Origin: Chloroflexota bacterium
GTDB lineage: Bacteria; Chloroflexota; Limnocylindria; Limnocylindrales; CSP1-4
Direction: 5' to 3'
NCBI GenBank assembly: GCA_004297395.1
Contig: SCUO01000036.1
Coordinates: forward strand, 1-64,000
Length of the DNA stretch: 64,000 bases
The stretch's first letter is position 1. The number at the start of each line of letters is the position of its first letter. The position numbers and the translations under genes are program-made. Below, piece after piece: positions 22,197-44,070 of this stretch. Below the pieces are notes generated by a model. It did not search any database. It was given only the letters and a program-made list of their open reading frames with translations, and had not been told where the DNA came from.

Positions 22197-22691
22197 GTGG
22201 ATCTCTACGGCTGGATCGTCTTCGCCCACATCGTGACGGTCATCCTGGCCTTCGCCGCACACGGGGTCTCGGCCTGGGCGATCTTCAGGGTTAGCGCCGA
22301 GCGGGATCGAACGCGGCTGTCGGCGATCCTCGACCTGTCGTCGAGCGCCCTGACCGCGGCGGGGATCCTGCTCCTCATCACGGTCGTGCTCGGCCTCGCC
22401 GCGGCCGTCATGGGTGGCCACTTCGCGAAGTTCTGGCCGTGGGCCGCGATCATCGTCCTGGTCATCGCCTTCGGCTCGATGACGCCGTTTGCCGCGATCC
22501 CGCTGAACAAGGTCCGGGCCGTCCTCGCCGTCGCCAAGCCCGGCGACATCAGCGGCCGGCCGGTCGGGGCGAGCGGGACGGACGAGGAGCTGGCGGTGGC
22601 GTTGGCGGCCATCCGGCCGGAGGTCCCGGCCGTCATCGGCGTCGCCGCGATCCTCATCCTCGCCTGGCTCATGCGGGCGAAACCCTTCTGA
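22197..22691 (+). CDS. Four-helix membrane protein of unknown function
   Basis: 164 residues. Helices near 5-30, 47-73, 82-105 and 143-160, with a cytoplasmic loop (KVRAVLAVAKPGDISGRP). A histidine-bearing first helix (IVFAHIVTVILAFAAHG) resembles DUF2269-like proteins, but I cannot assign it firmly. GTG start after TGGAGGG. Third gene of the tetR operon. Confidence 0.7.
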   Translation: MDLYGWIVFAHIVTVILAFAAHGVSAWAIFRVSAERDRTRLSAILDLSSSALTAAGILLLITVVLGLAAAVMGGHFAKFWPWAAIIVLVIAFGSMTPFAAIPLNKVRAVLAVAKPGDISGRPVGASGTDEELAVALAAIRPEVPAVIGVAAILILAWLMRAKPF

Positions 22692-22767
22692 TCGCTGGGC
22701 GGTGACGGCGCGGCGCGCTATCCTCGGCCTACCTCGCCCCGATCGAGGCGTCCCCGAAGGAGCGACC

Positions 22768-23193
22768 ATGGCGCCGAAGGACCCAAAGCTCGATCTGCTG
22801 AAGTCGATCCCGATCTTCGAGGGCCTCGGCGAGCACCAGCTCGAGCAGATCGCCCAGCTCGTCGATGAGGCCGATGTCCCAGCGGGGAAGGTCCTGATGC
22901 GGCAGGGCGAGCCGGGCGACGAGATGTTCATCGTGGTCCATGGCAACTTCACCATCGACCGTGACGGGAACGTGATCCGCGACTGCAGCGCCGGGCACGC
23001 GCTCGGCGAGCTGAACCTCCTCTCGCAAGGGCTTCGCTCCGCAACGGTCACGGCCAACGAGCCGAGCCGTGTCCTGGTCGTCGGGCATCGCGAGTTCCAT
23101 GCGCTCCTGGAGGTGGCCCCGGAGATTGCGAGGCACATGCTCGTCAATCTGGCCCGGCAGCTCCGAGCCCTCGACGAGGACGCCGTCGCCTAG
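22768..23193 (+). CDS. Stand-alone cyclic-nucleotide-binding domain protein
   Basis: 141 residues made of one cNMP-binding barrel: LKSIPIFEGLGEHQLEQIAQL, PAGKVLMRQGEPGDEMFIVVHG and the phosphate-binding cassette LGELNLLSQGLRSATVTA with the Glu and Arg needed for cAMP. No DNA-binding or enzymatic domain is attached, so it may act by protein contact. The start is ATG 22768 with AAGGAG upstream. One of three cNMP proteins in the window. Confidence 0.88.
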   Translation: MAPKDPKLDLLKSIPIFEGLGEHQLEQIAQLVDEADVPAGKVLMRQGEPGDEMFIVVHGNFTIDRDGNVIRDCSAGHALGELNLLSQGLRSATVTANEPSRVLVVGHREFHALLEVAPEIARHMLVNLARQLRALDEDAVA

Positions 23194-37438: not shown

Positions 37439-40400
37439 TCAGGACGCGGGAACGCCTTCGAGCAGGCTTCTGACCCGCTCGGCGGAGACCCGGTCTCCCT
37501 TCCGCTCGTACAGCTCCAGGGCCTCCCGCAAGGGGGGCCCTGACGATTCGAGGTCGCCCACCAGGCGCAGGACGATCGCGAGGTCGGCGAGCGTGTCGGC
37601 CTGCTGGTCGATGTCGAGCGTCGCGCCCGCGATCCTGACCGCCTCCGTCGCCGTCGCGATGGCCGTCTCCGACTCGCCGGCCCGCGCCTGGAGCTTGGCC
37701 CGGGTCGCCCGCCAGGCCGCCTGACTGTAGGCGTCGTCGACGTCGGCCAGCTCGGCCGCGAGGCCGGTGTAGCGGTCGGCCTCCTCGAGCTGGTCGCGCT
37801 CGTACAGGATGGCGCCGAGCAGGGCCGCCACGGTCGACCGGAAATACCGCTCGCCGAGCGCGTCGAGGGCGGCGAAGTCGGCCCGCAGGCCCGCCTCTGC
37901 CGCCGCCAGGTCGTCGGCCAGCAGCTCGACCCGCGACCAGTCCACCGAGGTCGAGGCGGCGGTGACGCTCGGGCCCAGGTCCAGCAGCATCTCCCGGCCG
38001 CGACCGTACAGCCCGCGGGCGCGGTCGAAGTCGCCTTCCATGGCGTGGAGGACCGAGAGGACGCCGGAGATGATCGCCTCGGCCTTGCGGTCGCCGCGGA
38101 CCTCCTCGGACAGCTCTTCGCAACGGCGGATCGCGTCAGCGACGGCGGTCGGGCCGTGGAGGGCGGTGGCCGCATAGCCCATCGCCCCGAGCCCGACGAG
38201 CCGCTGGTCGCCGGCGGCGTGGGCGTGGTCGGCGACCTTCGCGGCGGCCTCCGCGGCCAGGTCGTAGCGGCCGCTCGTCCCGTGGATGAACATGAGCAGC
38301 CGCCAGGCCCGGGCCATGTTCGCCGAATCGGCCAGCTCGGTCAGCAGGTCGAGCGCACCCTGGACCGTGGCGAGCGCGCCCTCGGCGTCGGCCGATTCGG
38401 CGGTGTAGAGATCGAGGGCGACCCGGGCGAGGGTGGTCCGGGCCGCGGCGCGGGCGTCAGCCAGCGATTCGGCCAGGGCCCGGGACTGCTCGATGACCGC
38501 CTTCGCTTCGTCGAACGAGCCGTTCTCGGTGAGCGCCTCGGCCAGCTCGGGCAGGAGCTCAACCCGGAGCGGGTCCGTCTCATCGAGGAGTGCCACTGCG
38601 CGCCGGAGGAGCGTGCAGGCCGCCGGGGTGTCGCCGCGCGCGAAGGCCCGCCGCCCGGCCGCGGACAGCTTGGCCGCCCCGCGTCGCCCGATCTCGCGGC
38701 CCTCCTCGTCGACCCGCCCCAGGTCCGTCCGGTAGCGGTAGGCCTGCTCGAGGTGATAGCCGAGGATCTCCTCGAACTCCTGCTCCCGGCCGCGCTCCTT
38801 GTTGACCCGCTCGGCCCAGGCCACGAATCGCTCGTGGAGGGTCGCCCGCGCGCGCTTCAGCAGGGCGCCGTACGCGGTGTCACGGATCAGCAGGTTCGAG
38901 AACCGGTAGGCGCCCTCGTCGTCGGTCGCGTCGGGCCGGACGAAGCGTTTCCGGGCGAGGGTCATGAGGTGCCCACCGACGGCGCTGCGCAGGACGTCCG
39001 GGGCGAGCTCGGTGACGGCGGCGGTCGCGAAGACAAGGCCGATGACCGACGCCGGCTCGATGACCGCCCGCTCCTCGCGGGCGAGGTGGTCCAGCCGAGC
39101 GGCAAGGAGGGCGTTGATCGACGGTGGCACCGCGAGCTCCGCGGCATCCTCGCTCGAGACCCAGCGTTCGCCATCCCGCCGGAGCGTGCCGGCGTCGACG
39201 AGCATCGACACGACCTGCTCGATGAACAGCGGGTTGCCCTCGGCCGCTGCGACGATCCGGGCCCGGACCGCGGCCTCGACCTCGCCGCCGCTGAGCAGGG
39301 CCTGCATGACCCGCCCGCTGTCCTCCTCGCCGAGGGGCCGGAGCTGGATGCGGTTCGCGGCCTGGGCGTCCCACCACTCGGGGTGGGACTCCTGGAGTTC
39401 GAGGCGGGCCGAGGCGACCACCAGGATCGGGGCGCCACGCACGGATTCGACGAGGTGGTCCAGGAGCTCCAGGAAGGTCGGCTCGGCGGAGTGGATGTCG
39501 TCGATCGCGAGGACGAGCGGCTTCGTTCGGGCAAGGCCCTCGAGGAACTTGCGAGCGCCCCAGAAGAGCTCGGCCACCGGGAACTGGCCTGCCGCCAGGC
39601 CCACCGCGGCCGCAACCCGCTCGACAATCCCGGGGCCCTCGCCATCCTCGGGGCCCTCCGTCCCCATGAGCGCGGCGATCTTGTCGATGGCCTGGGCCGG
39701 CGAGTCCTCCGGGTCGATCGAGGCGGCCTCGCGAACGATCTCCACGAGTGGCCAGAAGGTGATCCCGTCGCCATACGGGAGGCACCGGCCGCGGAGGATC
39801 CGGGCCCGATCCCCGACCCGGAGGCGGAACTCGCGGACGACCCGCGACTTGCCCACCCCGGCATCGCCGACGAGGAGCCGAATCCGGCAGGCGCTGAACT
39901 CCTCGGCCTCCTCGAGCGCCTCGCCCAGGCGGGCCAGCTCCCCGGTCCGGCCGACGAACGGCGTCGGGGCGCCCCGGCCGCCGCCCTCCTCGAGGGCCCC
40001 GCTGGCCGGTGCCCGCACGTCCACCAGCCGGTAGGCCGGCACGCGCTCAGCCTTGCCCTTGAGCTCGAGCGGTTCGACCGATTCGACGACGACCTCGTCC
40101 CGGACGAGCTGGTAGGTCAGCTCGCCGATGAGGACCTCCTGGGCCGGGGCCGACTGCTCGAGGCGGGCAGCGACGTTGACCGTGTCGCCGGTCACGATCT
40201 GCTGGTTGGCGTTGGGGTCCGAGTTGGCCACGACCGGGCCGGTATTGACGCCGGTCCGGTTGGCGAGCGTCACCCCGTACTCGCGCTCGAGCTCGACGTT
40301 CAGGGCTGCCAGGGCGCGCTGCATCCCGTGGGCCGCCCGCACGGCCCGCAGGGCGTCGTCCTCGCGGACCCGGGGGAAGCCGAAGACGGCCATGATCGCG

Positions 40401-40669
40401 TCGCCGATGTACTTCTCGAGCGTGCCGCCGTGGGCCAGCAGCGGCGCCCGCATCGCCTCGAAGTAGCGGGCCTCGACCTCCCGGACGGCCTCCGGGTCCA
40501 GGCTCTCGCCGAGCGAGGTGGAGCCCTTGAGGTCCGAGAAGACGATCGTGACGACCTTGCGCAGCTCCTGGGCCGGCAGCTCCGCGACGAGCGACGTCCC
40601 GCAGTAGCCGCACAGCCGGAACTTGGCGGGGTTCTCCTCGCCACAGCTCGGACAGACGACGACCTGCAT
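37439..40669 (-). CDS. Class III nucleotidyl cyclase with AAA-type NTPase and TPR region
   Basis: 1076 residues. Zinc ribbon (Cys 6, 9, 20, 23), class III cyclase domain about 38-215 with both metal aspartates (FSDLKGST D46, EKYIGDAIM D90) and the transition-state pair in GDTVNVAARLE (N165, R169), AAA_16-type NTPase with Walker A GDAGVGKS at about 268-275, then TPR-like helices to the end. Catalytic residues are intact, so it should make cAMP or cGMP. ATG 40669 is chosen for the TAGACT 7 bases upstream; the ORF track adds 95 arginine-rich residues. It is divergent from a Crp-type regulator. Confidence 0.92.
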   Translation of the reverse strand: MQVVVCPSCGEENPAKFRLCGYCGTSLVAELPAQELRKVVTIVFSDLKGSTSLGESLDPEAVREVEARYFEAMRAPLLAHGGTLEKYIGDAIMAVFGFPRVREDDALRAVRAAHGMQRALAALNVELEREYGVTLANRTGVNTGPVVANSDPNANQQIVTGDTVNVAARLEQSAPAQEVLIGELTYQLVRDEVVVESVEPLELKGKAERVPAYRLVDVRAPASGALEEGGGRGAPTPFVGRTGELARLGEALEEAEEFSACRIRLLVGDAGVGKSRVVREFRLRVGDRARILRGRCLPYGDGITFWPLVEIVREAASIDPEDSPAQAIDKIAALMGTEGPEDGEGPGIVERVAAAVGLAAGQFPVAELFWGARKFLEGLARTKPLVLAIDDIHSAEPTFLELLDHLVESVRGAPILVVASARLELQESHPEWWDAQAANRIQLRPLGEEDSGRVMQALLSGGEVEAAVRARIVAAAEGNPLFIEQVVSMLVDAGTLRRDGERWVSSEDAAELAVPPSINALLAARLDHLAREERAVIEPASVIGLVFATAAVTELAPDVLRSAVGGHLMTLARKRFVRPDATDDEGAYRFSNLLIRDTAYGALLKRARATLHERFVAWAERVNKERGREQEFEEILGYHLEQAYRYRTDLGRVDEEGREIGRRGAAKLSAAGRRAFARGDTPAACTLLRRAVALLDETDPLRVELLPELAEALTENGSFDEAKAVIEQSRALAESLADARAAARTTLARVALDLYTAESADAEGALATVQGALDLLTELADSANMARAWRLLMFIHGTSGRYDLAAEAAAKVADHAHAAGDQRLVGLGAMGYAATALHGPTAVADAIRRCEELSEEVRGDRKAEAIISGVLSVLHAMEGDFDRARGLYGRGREMLLDLGPSVTAASTSVDWSRVELLADDLAAAEAGLRADFAALDALGERYFRSTVAALLGAILYERDQLEEADRYTGLAAELADVDDAYSQAAWRATRAKLQARAGESETAIATATEAVRIAGATLDIDQQADTLADLAIVLRLVGDLESSGPPLREALELYERKGDRVSAERVRSLLEGVPAS

Positions 40670-40676
40670 GCTCCGG

Positions 40677-40682
40677 AGTCTA
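40677..40682 (-). promoter_or_regulatory. Putative leaderless -10 (TAGACT) for the cyclase gene
   Basis: TAGACT on the minus strand, 7 bases, ATG 40669. GGAG lies too close to the ATG to act as a normal Shine-Dalgarno. Confidence 0.45.
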
Positions 40683-40746
40683 GCGGCGCTTTCCTCGGCT
40701 ACGATGCGGCCGACGGGGGTTGTCCGCGCACGCCAGGGAGAACTGC

Positions 40747-41454
40747 ATGGCCGACGGCCCCGGGAGCTCGGTCGGGCTGGAAGCGCTGCGGCGCTGCCGC
40801 CTCTTCGCACGCCTTGACGAGGGTCGGCTGGCGCCGCTCGCGGCCTCGCTCCGGGCGCGGCGCTACCGCTCGGGCGAGACGATCTTCCACCAGGACGACC
40901 CGGGCGACGCCCTCCACGTCGTGACGGCCGGAGCGGTGAAGATCGTCCTGCCATCGGCCGAGGACGAGGAGCCGGCGATCATCGCGACCCTCCGGCCGGG
41001 CGACTTCTTCGGTGAGCTGGCCCTGTTCGACGACGCGCCCCGCTCCGCGACCGCGGTCGCCCTCGGCCCGACCGAGACGCTCGTCCTGCGACGCGAGGCG
41101 TTCCTCGCGCTGATCGACGACGACCGGTCGATGCGCCATGCCCTCCTGTCGTCGCTGGCCGACGAGATCCGGTCGATCACGGCCCACGTCCAGGATCTCC
41201 ACTTCCTGGACCTGCCGGGCCGGCTGAGCCGGCGCATCCTGCGCGAGGCGGAGAAGGTCGCGGCCGAGCCGGATGGCTCCTTCCGCCTCGCCTGGCCCTA
41301 CACCCAGGCCGAGCTGGCCGGGATGATCGGCGGCTCGCGCCAGTCGGTGAACCGCCTCCTCGCGGATCTCGTCGCCCGCGGCCTCATCCGGGTCGAGCGC
41401 GATGTCCTCGTCATCCCCGACCGGGTGGCGCTGGAGCGCTCAATCCGGCGCTGA
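40747..41454 (+). CDS. Crp/Fnr family transcriptional regulator
   Basis: 235 residues: cNMP domain with the cassette FFGELALFDDAPRSATAV (Glu and Arg present, so cAMP binding is plausible), a long dimer helix, and the winged helix YTQAELAGMIGGSRQSVNRLLADLVARGLIRVE. The start is ATG 40747 with AGGGAG; the ORF-track TTG at 40720 is upstream of that Shine-Dalgarno. It lies 77 bases from the divergent cyclase gene, a likely source of its ligand. Confidence 0.92.
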   Translation: MADGPGSSVGLEALRRCRLFARLDEGRLAPLAASLRARRYRSGETIFHQDDPGDALHVVTAGAVKIVLPSAEDEEPAIIATLRPGDFFGELALFDDAPRSATAVALGPTETLVLRREAFLALIDDDRSMRHALLSSLADEIRSITAHVQDLHFLDLPGRLSRRILREAEKVAAEPDGSFRLAWPYTQAELAGMIGGSRQSVNRLLADLVARGLIRVERDVLVIPDRVALERSIRR

Positions 41455-41479
41455 CCACGCGCTGACCTCGCGCGCCCGC

Positions 41480-41529
41480 GTCGACCGGGTCGACCGGGTC
41501 GACCGGTCGCCCGCGGGTCCGCGACCCGC
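41480..41529. terminator. Repeat and hairpin between convergent crp-like and MFS genes
   Basis: Three copies of GTCGACCGG (41480-41506) followed by GCGGGTC-CGC-GACCCGC (41513-41529), a 7-bp stem. They lie between two convergent stops and probably act as a bidirectional terminator. Confidence 0.5.
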
Positions 41530-41535
41530 CCGCCT

Positions 41536-43383
41536 TCAGCTCCCGCTGCTCGCCTCCGAGTAGGTCTTCGGCAGGGCCTGGGCGCGCGGCCGCCGGCGCA
41601 GGTCCTTCAGGTCGCGCTGGTCGAGCCCGGCCAGGCGGACGAGATCGGCGTTCGCCGTCCGGGTCAGCCGCTCCCGGAGCTTCGAGCTGATGAGCGAGTT
41701 CATGGCCGGGACCTCCATGAGGCTCTTCAGCGTCGCCGCCGGGACCTCGAGCAGGTCGGTCGATTCATCGGCCACGACGTTGGCCGTCCGGGTGCTGCCG
41801 GTCAGGGCCGCGATCTCGCCGAAGAAGTCGCCCGGTCCCATCGACGAGAGCGAGCGGAACTCCTCGCCTTCGGCCGGGATGCCGGCGACGACCCGGCCGC
41901 CCAGGACGAAGAACGCGGCATCGCTCGCGTCGCCGGCCCGGACGACGACGAATCCGGGCGGGGCCGTGGCGACGGTTGCGCCCGCGAGGAACTCGTTGCG
42001 GCGCTCCATCGCCAGGGCCTTGAGCTCCGGCAGGACGTCGATGAGGCGATCGAGGTCGAGCATGTTCGCCGGCCGACCGGCACCGACCGTCGGCGCCGTG
42101 GGCGTCGTCCGGAGCAGCTGGAGCGTCCGCCGCCACTCGGTCGCGGGACGGCCGAGGCCGGGCATGAACTGGGTCCAGACACCGGCCCCGGCGAGCACGA
42201 GCGAGGCGACCACGACGAGCTCCCGGACCGGGAAGACGTCGGCCAGGCCGGCGCCGGCCATGCCCACCAGGAACAGCACGTCGCGGGACACGAAGAACGC
42301 CGAGAAGACGCGGCCCCGCATGTCCCGCGGGATGTGGCGCTGCAGCAGCAGCCGCCGGGCGATCGACATGGGTGCGTTGAGGAAGCCCGTGATCATCACG
42401 AGGACGATGGCGATGTTCATCGTCGGGGCCAGGCCGTAGAGCACGCCGAAGATGCCCATGGCTGCGGTGGCCACGACGAGCCACGAGCCTTCGTTGAGGC
42501 GGTCGCCGAAGCGGGCCATGAGGAAGCTGCCGATGACGAAGCCGACCGAGGTCAGGCCCTCCTGGAGCCCGTACTCGAACTCCGTCCCGCCCAGCTCGCG
42601 AATGGCCATCGGCAGGAGCAGGACGTTCCACAGCCCGAACGACAGAAAGACGGGGGCACCGACGATGAAGATCGACCGCAGGATCGGGGTGCTCCAGAGG
42701 TAGCTCGCGCCGCTCTTCAGGTTGTCGACGACCACCCCGATGGACGTGGGCTCAGGCGCCCCGCCCTTCGGCACGCGGACGACGATGAGCAGGGCGAACG
42801 CCGCGAAGTAGGTCAGCGCGTCGATGAAGAACGGCAGCAGGATGTTCGACGAGGCAAGAAAGCCGGCGGCCGCGAAGCCGACCGCGGTCGAGCCGAACGA
42901 GCTCACTGCCAGGAACGAGTTGGCCTGGGTCAGCTCCTCTTCGGTCGCGATCTCGGGGAGCACCGCCTCCCAGGCCGGATCGAAGAACTGGCGGACCGTG
43001 GCCGAGACGAAGACCAGGCCGTACAGCGCGGCCACGAACGCCTCCGGCCGCTCCTCCGAGAAGAGCGTCATGTAGGCGAGCGGGATCCCGAGGACGATGA
43101 AGCCCCGGAGCAGGTTCGCCAGGAGCAGGATCCGCTTCTTGTCGTAGCGATCGACGAAGACGCCGGCGAACAGCCCGAAGACGAGCGTCGGGATCGCGGT
43201 GACCATCAGCACGGCGCCGACCGCGAAGGCCGAGCCCGTGATCCGGAAGATGAGGATCGCGGCCGCGAGATCCGTGAGCGCCTCGCCGATCGTGGAGATG
43301 AGCTGGGCCGACCACATCAGCGTGAAGTCGCGCTTGCCGAAGATCGCGAACATCGACCTCGAGGCGGGGGCCGGCTGGGTCAT
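41536..43383 (-). CDS. MFS transporter with C-terminal cyclic-nucleotide-binding domain
   Basis: 615 residues. Residues 1 to about 410 form a 12-helix MFS transporter of the enterobactin/macrolide-exporter type (FTLMWSAQLISTIGEALTDLAAAILIF, FAGVFVDRYDKKRILLLAN). Residues about 465-590 form a cNMP barrel with GDFFGEIAALTGSTRTANVVA, keeping the Glu and Arg of cAMP binders. The tail is basic. Ligand-gated export is inferred. It is convergent with the Crp-type gene and near the cyclase. Confidence 0.9.
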   Translation of the reverse strand: MTQPAPASRSMFAIFGKRDFTLMWSAQLISTIGEALTDLAAAILIFRITGSAFAVGAVLMVTAIPTLVFGLFAGVFVDRYDKKRILLLANLLRGFIVLGIPLAYMTLFSEERPEAFVAALYGLVFVSATVRQFFDPAWEAVLPEIATEEELTQANSFLAVSSFGSTAVGFAAAGFLASSNILLPFFIDALTYFAAFALLIVVRVPKGGAPEPTSIGVVVDNLKSGASYLWSTPILRSIFIVGAPVFLSFGLWNVLLLPMAIRELGGTEFEYGLQEGLTSVGFVIGSFLMARFGDRLNEGSWLVVATAAMGIFGVLYGLAPTMNIAIVLVMITGFLNAPMSIARRLLLQRHIPRDMRGRVFSAFFVSRDVLFLVGMAGAGLADVFPVRELVVVASLVLAGAGVWTQFMPGLGRPATEWRRTLQLLRTTPTAPTVGAGRPANMLDLDRLIDVLPELKALAMERRNEFLAGATVATAPPGFVVVRAGDASDAAFFVLGGRVVAGIPAEGEEFRSLSSMGPGDFFGEIAALTGSTRTANVVADESTDLLEVPAATLKSLMEVPAMNSLISSKLRERLTRTANADLVRLAGLDQRDLKDLRRRPRAQALPKTYSEASSGS

Positions 43384-43464: not shown

Positions 43465-44070
43465 CTATCGTCCGCGGCCGCCCCGTGGGAGGCTTCTGGG
43501 CAGATGGACGCCCTCGGCGGCCAGGAGCGAGGACTTGAGCTCGAGGAGCCGCTCGTGGTCGCCCCACCAGCCGCCGCCGTAGCCGCCGAGGGTGCCGTCG
43601 CCGGCGACCACCCGATGGCATGGCACCAGCATCGCCACGGGGTTGCGACCGACCGCGCCACCCACCGCCCGGGCGGCGCCGGGACGGTCGACCGCCCGGG
43701 CGATGTCGCCGTAGCTCCGGGTCTCGCCGCGCGGGATGGCCCGGACCGCGGCGAGGACCTCGCGATCGAAGGCCGGCCGATCTGACAGGTCGAGGGGCAG
43801 CGCGTCCAGGCCGGCCGAGTCATCGCCGGCCAGGGCTTCGGCCAGCACCGTCGCGGCCCGATCGAGGAGCGCCGGCCGAGCCTCGCCCCCGCCGATCCAA
43901 CGGACCGGGCGACGAAGGCGGGCCTCCAGGCCGGCCTCGAACGCCTCTCGCGTGGTGGTCAGCCCGACGGCCACGACGCCGCGGTCCGAAACCGCGACAT
44001 GAACCGGCCCCCACGGCGCGGCGACCGCCGTCGCAACGAGCCGGTCATCGGGGCGCTGGTCGGCTGCCAT
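43465..44070 (-). CDS. ogt: Methylated-DNA-protein-cysteine methyltransferase
   Basis: 201 residues. The suicide DNA-repair domain has FDREVLAAVRAIPRGETRSYGDIA, the helix RAVGGAVGRNPVAMLVPCHRVV with the acceptor Cys, and GGYGGGWWGDHERLLELK. Removes O6-alkyl groups from guanine. An N-terminal ribonuclease-H-like part precedes it. Divergent from the thioesterase gene. Confidence 0.94.
   Translation of the reverse strand: MAADQRPDDRLVATAVAAPWGPVHVAVSDRGVVAVGLTTTREAFEAGLEARLRRPVRWIGGGEARPALLDRAATVLAEALAGDDSAGLDALPLDLSDRPAFDREVLAAVRAIPRGETRSYGDIARAVDRPGAARAVGGAVGRNPVAMLVPCHRVVAGDGTLGGYGGGWWGDHERLLELKSSLLAAEGVHLPRSLPRGGRGR

Follow-up and report, generated by a model that had tools for sequence, protein, structure and literature searches.

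A cyclase, a Crp-type regulator and a cyclic-nucleotide-domain transporter in a Chloroflexota genome: reduced form of a larger conserved locus

Introduction

Partnerships between cyclases and CRP regulators are established knowledge in bacteria, and the mycobacterial proteins Rv3239c and Rv3728 exemplify the fusion of a major facilitator superfamily (MFS) transporter with a cyclic-nucleotide (cNMP) domain. MFS transporters of this kind are documented among regulatory-domain fusions (PMC10710835), an architecture that is already known, if uncharacterised. Here we describe a locus in which these elements stand together. In the window (the whole stretch of 64,000 nucleotides analysed, from contig SCUO01000036.1 of a Chloroflexota bacterium of the Limnocylindrales), a class III nucleotide cyclase, a Crp-type regulator and an MFS transporter with a C-terminal cNMP domain (hereafter MFS-cNMP) are encoded side by side (Table 1). 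This locus is a reduced variant, the remnant of a larger Chloroflexota locus. We read it as a cyclic-nucleotide signalling/export module whose exporter probably carried, in the ancestral locus, a processed repeat peptide, an interpretation on which our confidence is evenly divided.

The window transporter shares with known fusions of an MFS protein to a cyclic-nucleotide-binding domain (MFS-CNBD) the MFS core and the cytosolic, C-terminal cNMP domain; it differs from them in its surroundings, the cyclase and Crp genes adjoining it here, and peptide, subtilase and GAF-protein genes in relatives. Catalytic residues, Crp fold and cNMP cassette are common to the window proteins and to Pseudomonas aeruginosa CyaB/Vfr and Mycobacterium tuberculosis CRP. 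Unlike the CyaB/Vfr type, however, the window cyclase is fused to an AAA-TPR region, its gene is divergent from that of Crp, its second purine-selecting position is Ile, and its signal has the transporter as an additional likely target. The loci of the relatives also resemble the cyanobactin PatA/PatG and QhpE-type loci for ribosomally synthesized and post-translationally modified peptides (RiPPs), in that repeated peptide units are encoded next to an exporter and an S8 protease without a signal peptide. Yet their S8 proteins, closest to the mycosin, QhpE and PatA models, score below every cut-off, no modifying enzyme was identified among neighbours that are not fully annotated, and the set is absent from the window. 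Two protein families, TIGR03896 (cNMP proteins of bacteriocin-type transport loci) and TIGR03903 (TOMM kinase/cyclase fusions), likewise tie a cNMP domain or a cyclase-ATPase/TPR protein to peptide loci. The window proteins fall short of both models: Crp and the transporter reach 31.5 and 23.3 of the 161 bits of TIGR03896 (cyc_nuc_ocin), and the match to TIGR03903 (TOMM_kin_cyc) reaches 212.8 of 705.75 bits and begins at profile position 316.

A literature search returned no description of an association of Crp, GAF protein, subtilase, DVEGH peptide and MFS-cNMP, nor of such a locus in Chloroflexi; matches to 'DVEGH' were unrelated, and the sole paper found on cNMP proteins in a biosynthetic locus concerns geosmin. 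The peptide/subtilase locus thus appears undescribed in the literature and family libraries searched.

A larger conserved locus in Chloroflexota

The first-pass annotation had presented cyclase, Crp and MFS-cNMP as a self-contained three-gene module. An isolated trio is ruled out by the GAF, subtilase and peptide genes found in the neighbourhoods of Crp orthologues, and it was through these, instead of transporter neighbourhoods, that the larger locus was found. The wider conserved unit consists of Crp, a GAF-domain protein, a subtilase, a repeat peptide and MFS-cNMP, with the cyclase as an optional neighbour. After most close Crp orthologues come the GAF-domain protein and a signal-less subtilase, followed by an MFS-cNMP that is often of a second subfamily, 21-24% identical to that of the window. 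Crp lies no more than 1.7 kb from the subtilase in 29 of the 33 subtilase-bearing genomes of the family, and MFS-cNMP no more than 2.4 kb away in 23; the exceptions are mostly contig edges or genes located elsewhere.

The gene order varies. In some genera (L074, L093, L095, L096, L098), the MFS-cNMP and Crp genes directly follow one another on the same strand with 4 to ~130 bases between them, and a sister family has the complete set on one strand, either as MFS-cNMP, Crp, peptide, GAF, subtilase (L160, L161, L162) or as Crp, peptide, GAF, subtilase, MFS-cNMP (L159). The linkage persists through these changes in order and orientation. Across 350 Chloroflexota genomes, MFS-cNMP proteins of these subfamilies are present in 22 of the 36 with the subtilase versus 14 of the 314 without it (Fisher 2e-16, without correction for relatedness). 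In three loci from other classes (L175, L176, L181), the MFS transporter next to the GAF and subtilase pair lacks a cNMP domain, so that the pair exists without cyclic-nucleotide parts too.

Repeat peptides and the subtilase

Small open reading frames (ORFs) between or beside the locus genes are built of repeats around D-[VT]-E-G-H; examples of the unit are RKPEGTFRATPDDKDDTEGHSF, repeated in L082, and GVRKGLTDDDDVEGHGFRKGISDDDDVEGH in L159. The motif [DE][VT]EGH is present at 37 of 61 subtilase loci, and its density in DNA no more than 3.5 kb from the subtilase (119 occurrences in 388 kb) is 17 times that found elsewhere (20 in 1094 kb). Tandem D-[VT]-E-G-H ORFs lie by the GAF and subtilase genes (L159 5939-6484, L160 5581-6102, L161 8688-9005, L163 8360-8680, L172 8357-8920 and ~30 further loci) and are candidate precursor peptides. 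A second peptide form is found directly upstream of Crp (L081 6203-6403, L082 6595-6834, L087 3-284, L085 7943-8266); it has at least one DVEGH unit and then a conserved charged tail, probably helical (for example LLGEQLARVRERDIQRNLKN, L082). Neither form had matches in Pfam or NCBIfam beyond chance or low-complexity noise. As for the subtilase, strict Asp, His and Ser motifs are present in 51 of 64 copies.

By gene content, complete relatives bring a precursor-type peptide, a processing protease and an exporter together in one locus, and the combination of repeat units, cytosolic subtilase and exporter looks like a ribosomal peptide pathway. We tentatively propose, at somewhat less than an even chance, that the ancestral locus could represent an undescribed Chloroflexota class of ribosomal-peptide secretion, in which a GAF-partnered cytosolic subtilase would cut the repeats and an MFS transporter under direct gating by a cyclic nucleotide would export the products; the window strain and one genome of another genus (G003) would keep the signalling/export half.

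Gene loss and retention in the window genome

The same-genus genome G064 has identical neighbours in the same order, and there Crp and MFS-cNMP are separated by genes for the GAF protein, the subtilase and a DVEGH peptide (L156); in the window these genes are missing from the 81-bp gap. No subtilase was detected elsewhere in the window genome at E 1e-8, a negative that is not absolute, as this 3.08-Mb draft is 85% complete. Its six DVEGH motif matches include none within a peptide-type ORF; neither locus nor genome yielded the repeat peptide or orthologous subtilase of a RiPP-type system. Crp, GAF and subtilase genes form a set at a separate site in other members of the window genus (L154, L155; L157 in part). 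G003 has the same compact form as the window and no subtilase match either. What the window genome retains intact is the cyclase, Crp and exporter; the genes for the peptide, the protease and the GAF protein have been lost.

The Crp gene has a ratio of nonsynonymous to synonymous substitution rates (dN/dS) of ~0.19; for the cyclase gene it is ~0.25, and for the transporter gene ~0.25-0.39. The three retained genes are under purifying selection, although much of this signal may predate the loss. The locus L116 is likewise without a subtilase; its transporter is 82% identical to that of the window, and the dN/dS of this pair is 0.25. The missing GAF, subtilase and peptide genes, together with the lack of an orthologous subtilase in the genome, would fit a decaying remnant that has shed its cargo, protease and GAF genes and is in the course of losing the others. 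We consider such decay quite improbable, since none of the three retained genes is truncated and their active-site and cassette residues are intact, their dN/dS values are well below 1, and the same compact form occurs in another genus.

The MFS-cNMP transporter

The transporter matches MFS_1 (3e-33) and cNMP (2e-15) in Pfam. Its AlphaFold model (mean predicted local distance difference test score 88) has 12 membrane helices followed by a cNMP beta-roll, a cassette helix and a C-helix; both Pfam and the model place the cNMP domain C-terminally, after the MFS core, on the cytosolic side, as in MFS-CNBD fusions. An alignment of 38 MFS-cNMP proteins, in which those other than the window protein share 20-67% identity with it, has just 17 invariant columns, and the cassette residues Gly522, Glu523 and Arg532 account for 3 of them, being present in all 38. 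The same transporter was found in named relatives that belong almost exclusively to Chloroflexota, including both UBA5189 and a Ca. Limnocylindrales genome.

The fusion had been called uncommon in the first-pass annotation, a description that does not survive the comparison: at least three MFS-cNMP subfamilies are present in the family of the window, and a second copy lies on the same contig, ~25 kb from the locus (L047 3693-5351). This protein of 552 aa belongs to a third subfamily, retains the cassette Glu and Arg, and is not adjacent to Crp or a cyclase.

Among NCBIfam models, the transporter is closest to the H+ antiporter subfamily TIGR00900, to EntS and to Mef-type efflux proteins, and the fold neighbours of the model are MFS efflux and other MFS transporters, including NorA and MdfA. 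These likenesses, and the retention of the transporter in genomes without the subtilase, favour an efflux pump under cNMP regulation whose substrates would be small molecules (drugs, siderophores or lipids), in which case the peptide and protease genes of relatives would take a different route and merely share a regulated neighbourhood. The operon-like run of transporter, peptide, GAF and subtilase genes in the sister family and the strong co-occurrence of transporter and subtilase argue against such a pump, which we regard as unlikely.

The cyclase and the Crp regulator

The start of the cyclase was placed at the MQVVVCPSCGEENP zinc ribbon and not at the start of the longer frame. Behind this N-terminal ribbon, the protein matches Guanylate_cyc (E 1e-20), AAA_16 (3e-21) and TPR_12 (3e-10). 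The class III domain (PF00211) scores above its cut-off, and the two metal-binding Asp, the Lys, the Asn and the Arg of the catalytic site are all retained, so that the enzyme looks active, in line with the first-pass annotation. The second purine-selecting position is Ile instead of Asp/Thr, the Lys being retained, and the residues hence do not discriminate between ATP and GTP as substrate. The closest solved structures are CyaB and cyanobacterial and other bacterial adenylate cyclases.

Tandem cyclase domains adjoin MFS-cNMP at other loci (L052 3109-7002, L053 9138-13058, L059 412-1974, L116 7100-11014, L120 9822-13586). Their first domain retains both metal Asp and has lost Asn and Arg, and their second has lost the first metal Asp and retains Asn and Arg, complementary losses suggestive of an obligate heterodimer like the C1/C2 pair of mammalian adenylate cyclases.

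Crp matches cNMP (1e-26) and HTH_Crp_2 (5e-14), and its closest solved structures are M. tuberculosis CRP and a Crp-family regulator of C. glutamicum. With the cassette Glu and Arg and a Crp-type HTH, it is predicted to belong to the cAMP-binding Crp/Fnr proteins. Crp orthologues with variant cassettes (e.g. L072, L073, L082, L084, L156) stand next to MFS-cNMP proteins whose cassette never varies, and some of them may, judging from these residues, sense another ligand. The invariant cassette of the transporter, as opposed to the variable one of Crp, indicates that the nucleotide site of the former is the more constrained.

Linkage among genomes of the family

Among 61 genomes sampled from the family of the window genome, 19 encode MFS-cNMP of the window type. 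A class III cyclase is its direct neighbour, or only a few genes away, in 11 of these (G000, G003, G013, G022, G030, G035, G040, G048, G051, G054, G056) and a Crp ortholog in 6 (G000, G003, G030, G040, G051, G056), with a probable seventh Crp linkage across a contig end (G021). Conservation of the three-gene order, suggested as a check on the module, was borne out in part: cyclase, Crp and MFS-cNMP stay linked across genera at ~50% identity, but the compact order with nothing intervening is found in only 2 of the 61 genomes (G000, G003). The surroundings of the transporter region (fabF, a thioesterase, ogt and an M24 peptidase) are conserved as well.

A possible mechanism

In the signalling/export reading, the cyclase would make a cyclic nucleotide, most likely cAMP, which would bind the cytosolic cNMP domain of the transporter and thereby gate or modulate export, while Crp would adjust transcription using the same or a related signal. 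At complete loci, the cargo would probably be a ribosomal D-[VT]-E-G-H repeat peptide, trimmed in the cytosol by the subtilase with the assistance of the GAF protein. As the window genome lost the peptide, protease and GAF genes and kept the exporter, the latter presumably serves another cargo in this strain.

Several observations weigh against this reading. MFS-cNMP occurs without a cyclase or Crp nearby in four genomes (G001, G005, G028, G032). Judging from the Ile at its purine-selecting position, the cyclase could produce cGMP. The window genome has no subtilase gene, so that a peptide cargo cannot apply there directly. Among 52 Crp relatives scored, the cassette is Glu/Arg in 31, Glu/His in 19 and Ala/Arg in 2, the Crp of G064 being one with Ala for Glu; with Arg so often replaced by His, regulation of transcription by cAMP stands on less sure ground than regulation of the transporter. 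Finally, the linkage can be put down in part to inherited gene order: the unrelated neighbours fabF, thioesterase, ogt and M24 are conserved too, and linkage alone is therefore no proof of shared function.

The conserved unrelated neighbours and the frequent replacement of the Crp Arg would also be expected if the cNMP domains were structural, or sensed something else, and the genes stayed together through inherited order only. This we judge improbable, because Glu and Arg of the MFS domain are invariant over 38 divergent proteins and the linkage survives changes of order and orientation.

Features of the locus and its genome

The three genes of the trio, which the first-pass annotation had described as a cyclase facing Crp with MFS-cNMP adjacent, are all intact (Table 1). 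The cyclase and Crp genes are divergent, with 77 bp between them, and the Crp and MFS-cNMP genes are convergent. No CRP box was evident by eye in the 77-bp gap when the regions were set side by side; no systematic scan was made. The ogt gene beside the transporter probably reflects synteny only.

Table 1. Coordinates of the locus features in the window
Feature	Position	Strand	Remarks
Cyclase gene	37439..40669	-	Class III nucleotide cyclase, zinc ribbon + AAA ATPase + TPR, 1076 aa; Pfam domains
Cyclase catalytic domain	40046..40558	-	aa 38-208; PF00211
Crp-type transcription regulator	40747..41454	+	235 aa; cNMP_binding + HTH_Crp_2
cNMP domain of Crp	40858..41121	+	PF00027; cassette FGELALFDDAPRSA, Glu and Arg present
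Crp/MFS-cNMP intergenic gap	41455..41535	.	81 bp; GAF, subtilase and DVEGH-repeat peptide genes here in most relatives
MFS transporter with C-terminal cNMP domain	41536..43383	-	615 aa; MFS_1/MFS_3 + cNMP_binding
cNMP domain of transporter	41713..41961	-	aa 475-557; Gly522, Glu523, Arg532
ogt-type methylguanine methyltransferase	43465..44070	-	Pfam; adjoins MFS-cNMP in most relatives

The draft genome has 9 cNMP-domain and 10 cyclase-domain matches. Retention of Glu and Arg, claimed for all cNMP cassettes from the first reading of the DNA, holds for both domains of the locus (FGELALFDDAPRSA, FGEIAALTGSTRTA); since both residues are present in 6 of 8 cNMP domains inspected genome-wide, cassette retention alone is weak evidence.

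Other cNMP-domain frames were recorded in this genome. A third frame in the window (22507-23190, + strand) encodes 228 aa with a C-terminal cNMP domain, Glu and Arg retained and no further Pfam domain. A further cyclase/cNMP pairing is found on C115 (L048 1778-5626), where an AAA-type cyclase is adjoined by two small cNMP-domain frames, one with the cassette Arg lost. On C32 (L049 52-1380), a frame of 443 aa carries, at its C-terminus, a cNMP domain with neither Glu nor Arg in the cassette, and residues 1-300 of the frame are without any Pfam family match.

Implications

MFS-cNMP genes have been seen in genomes for years. The locus described here pairs a candidate signal source, the cyclase, with a sensor, and its full versions, spread over several Chloroflexota families as the peptide/subtilase locus, add a candidate cargo and a protease in an operon-like run. 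With signal source, sensor, candidate cargo and protease together, both gating and cargo become directly testable.

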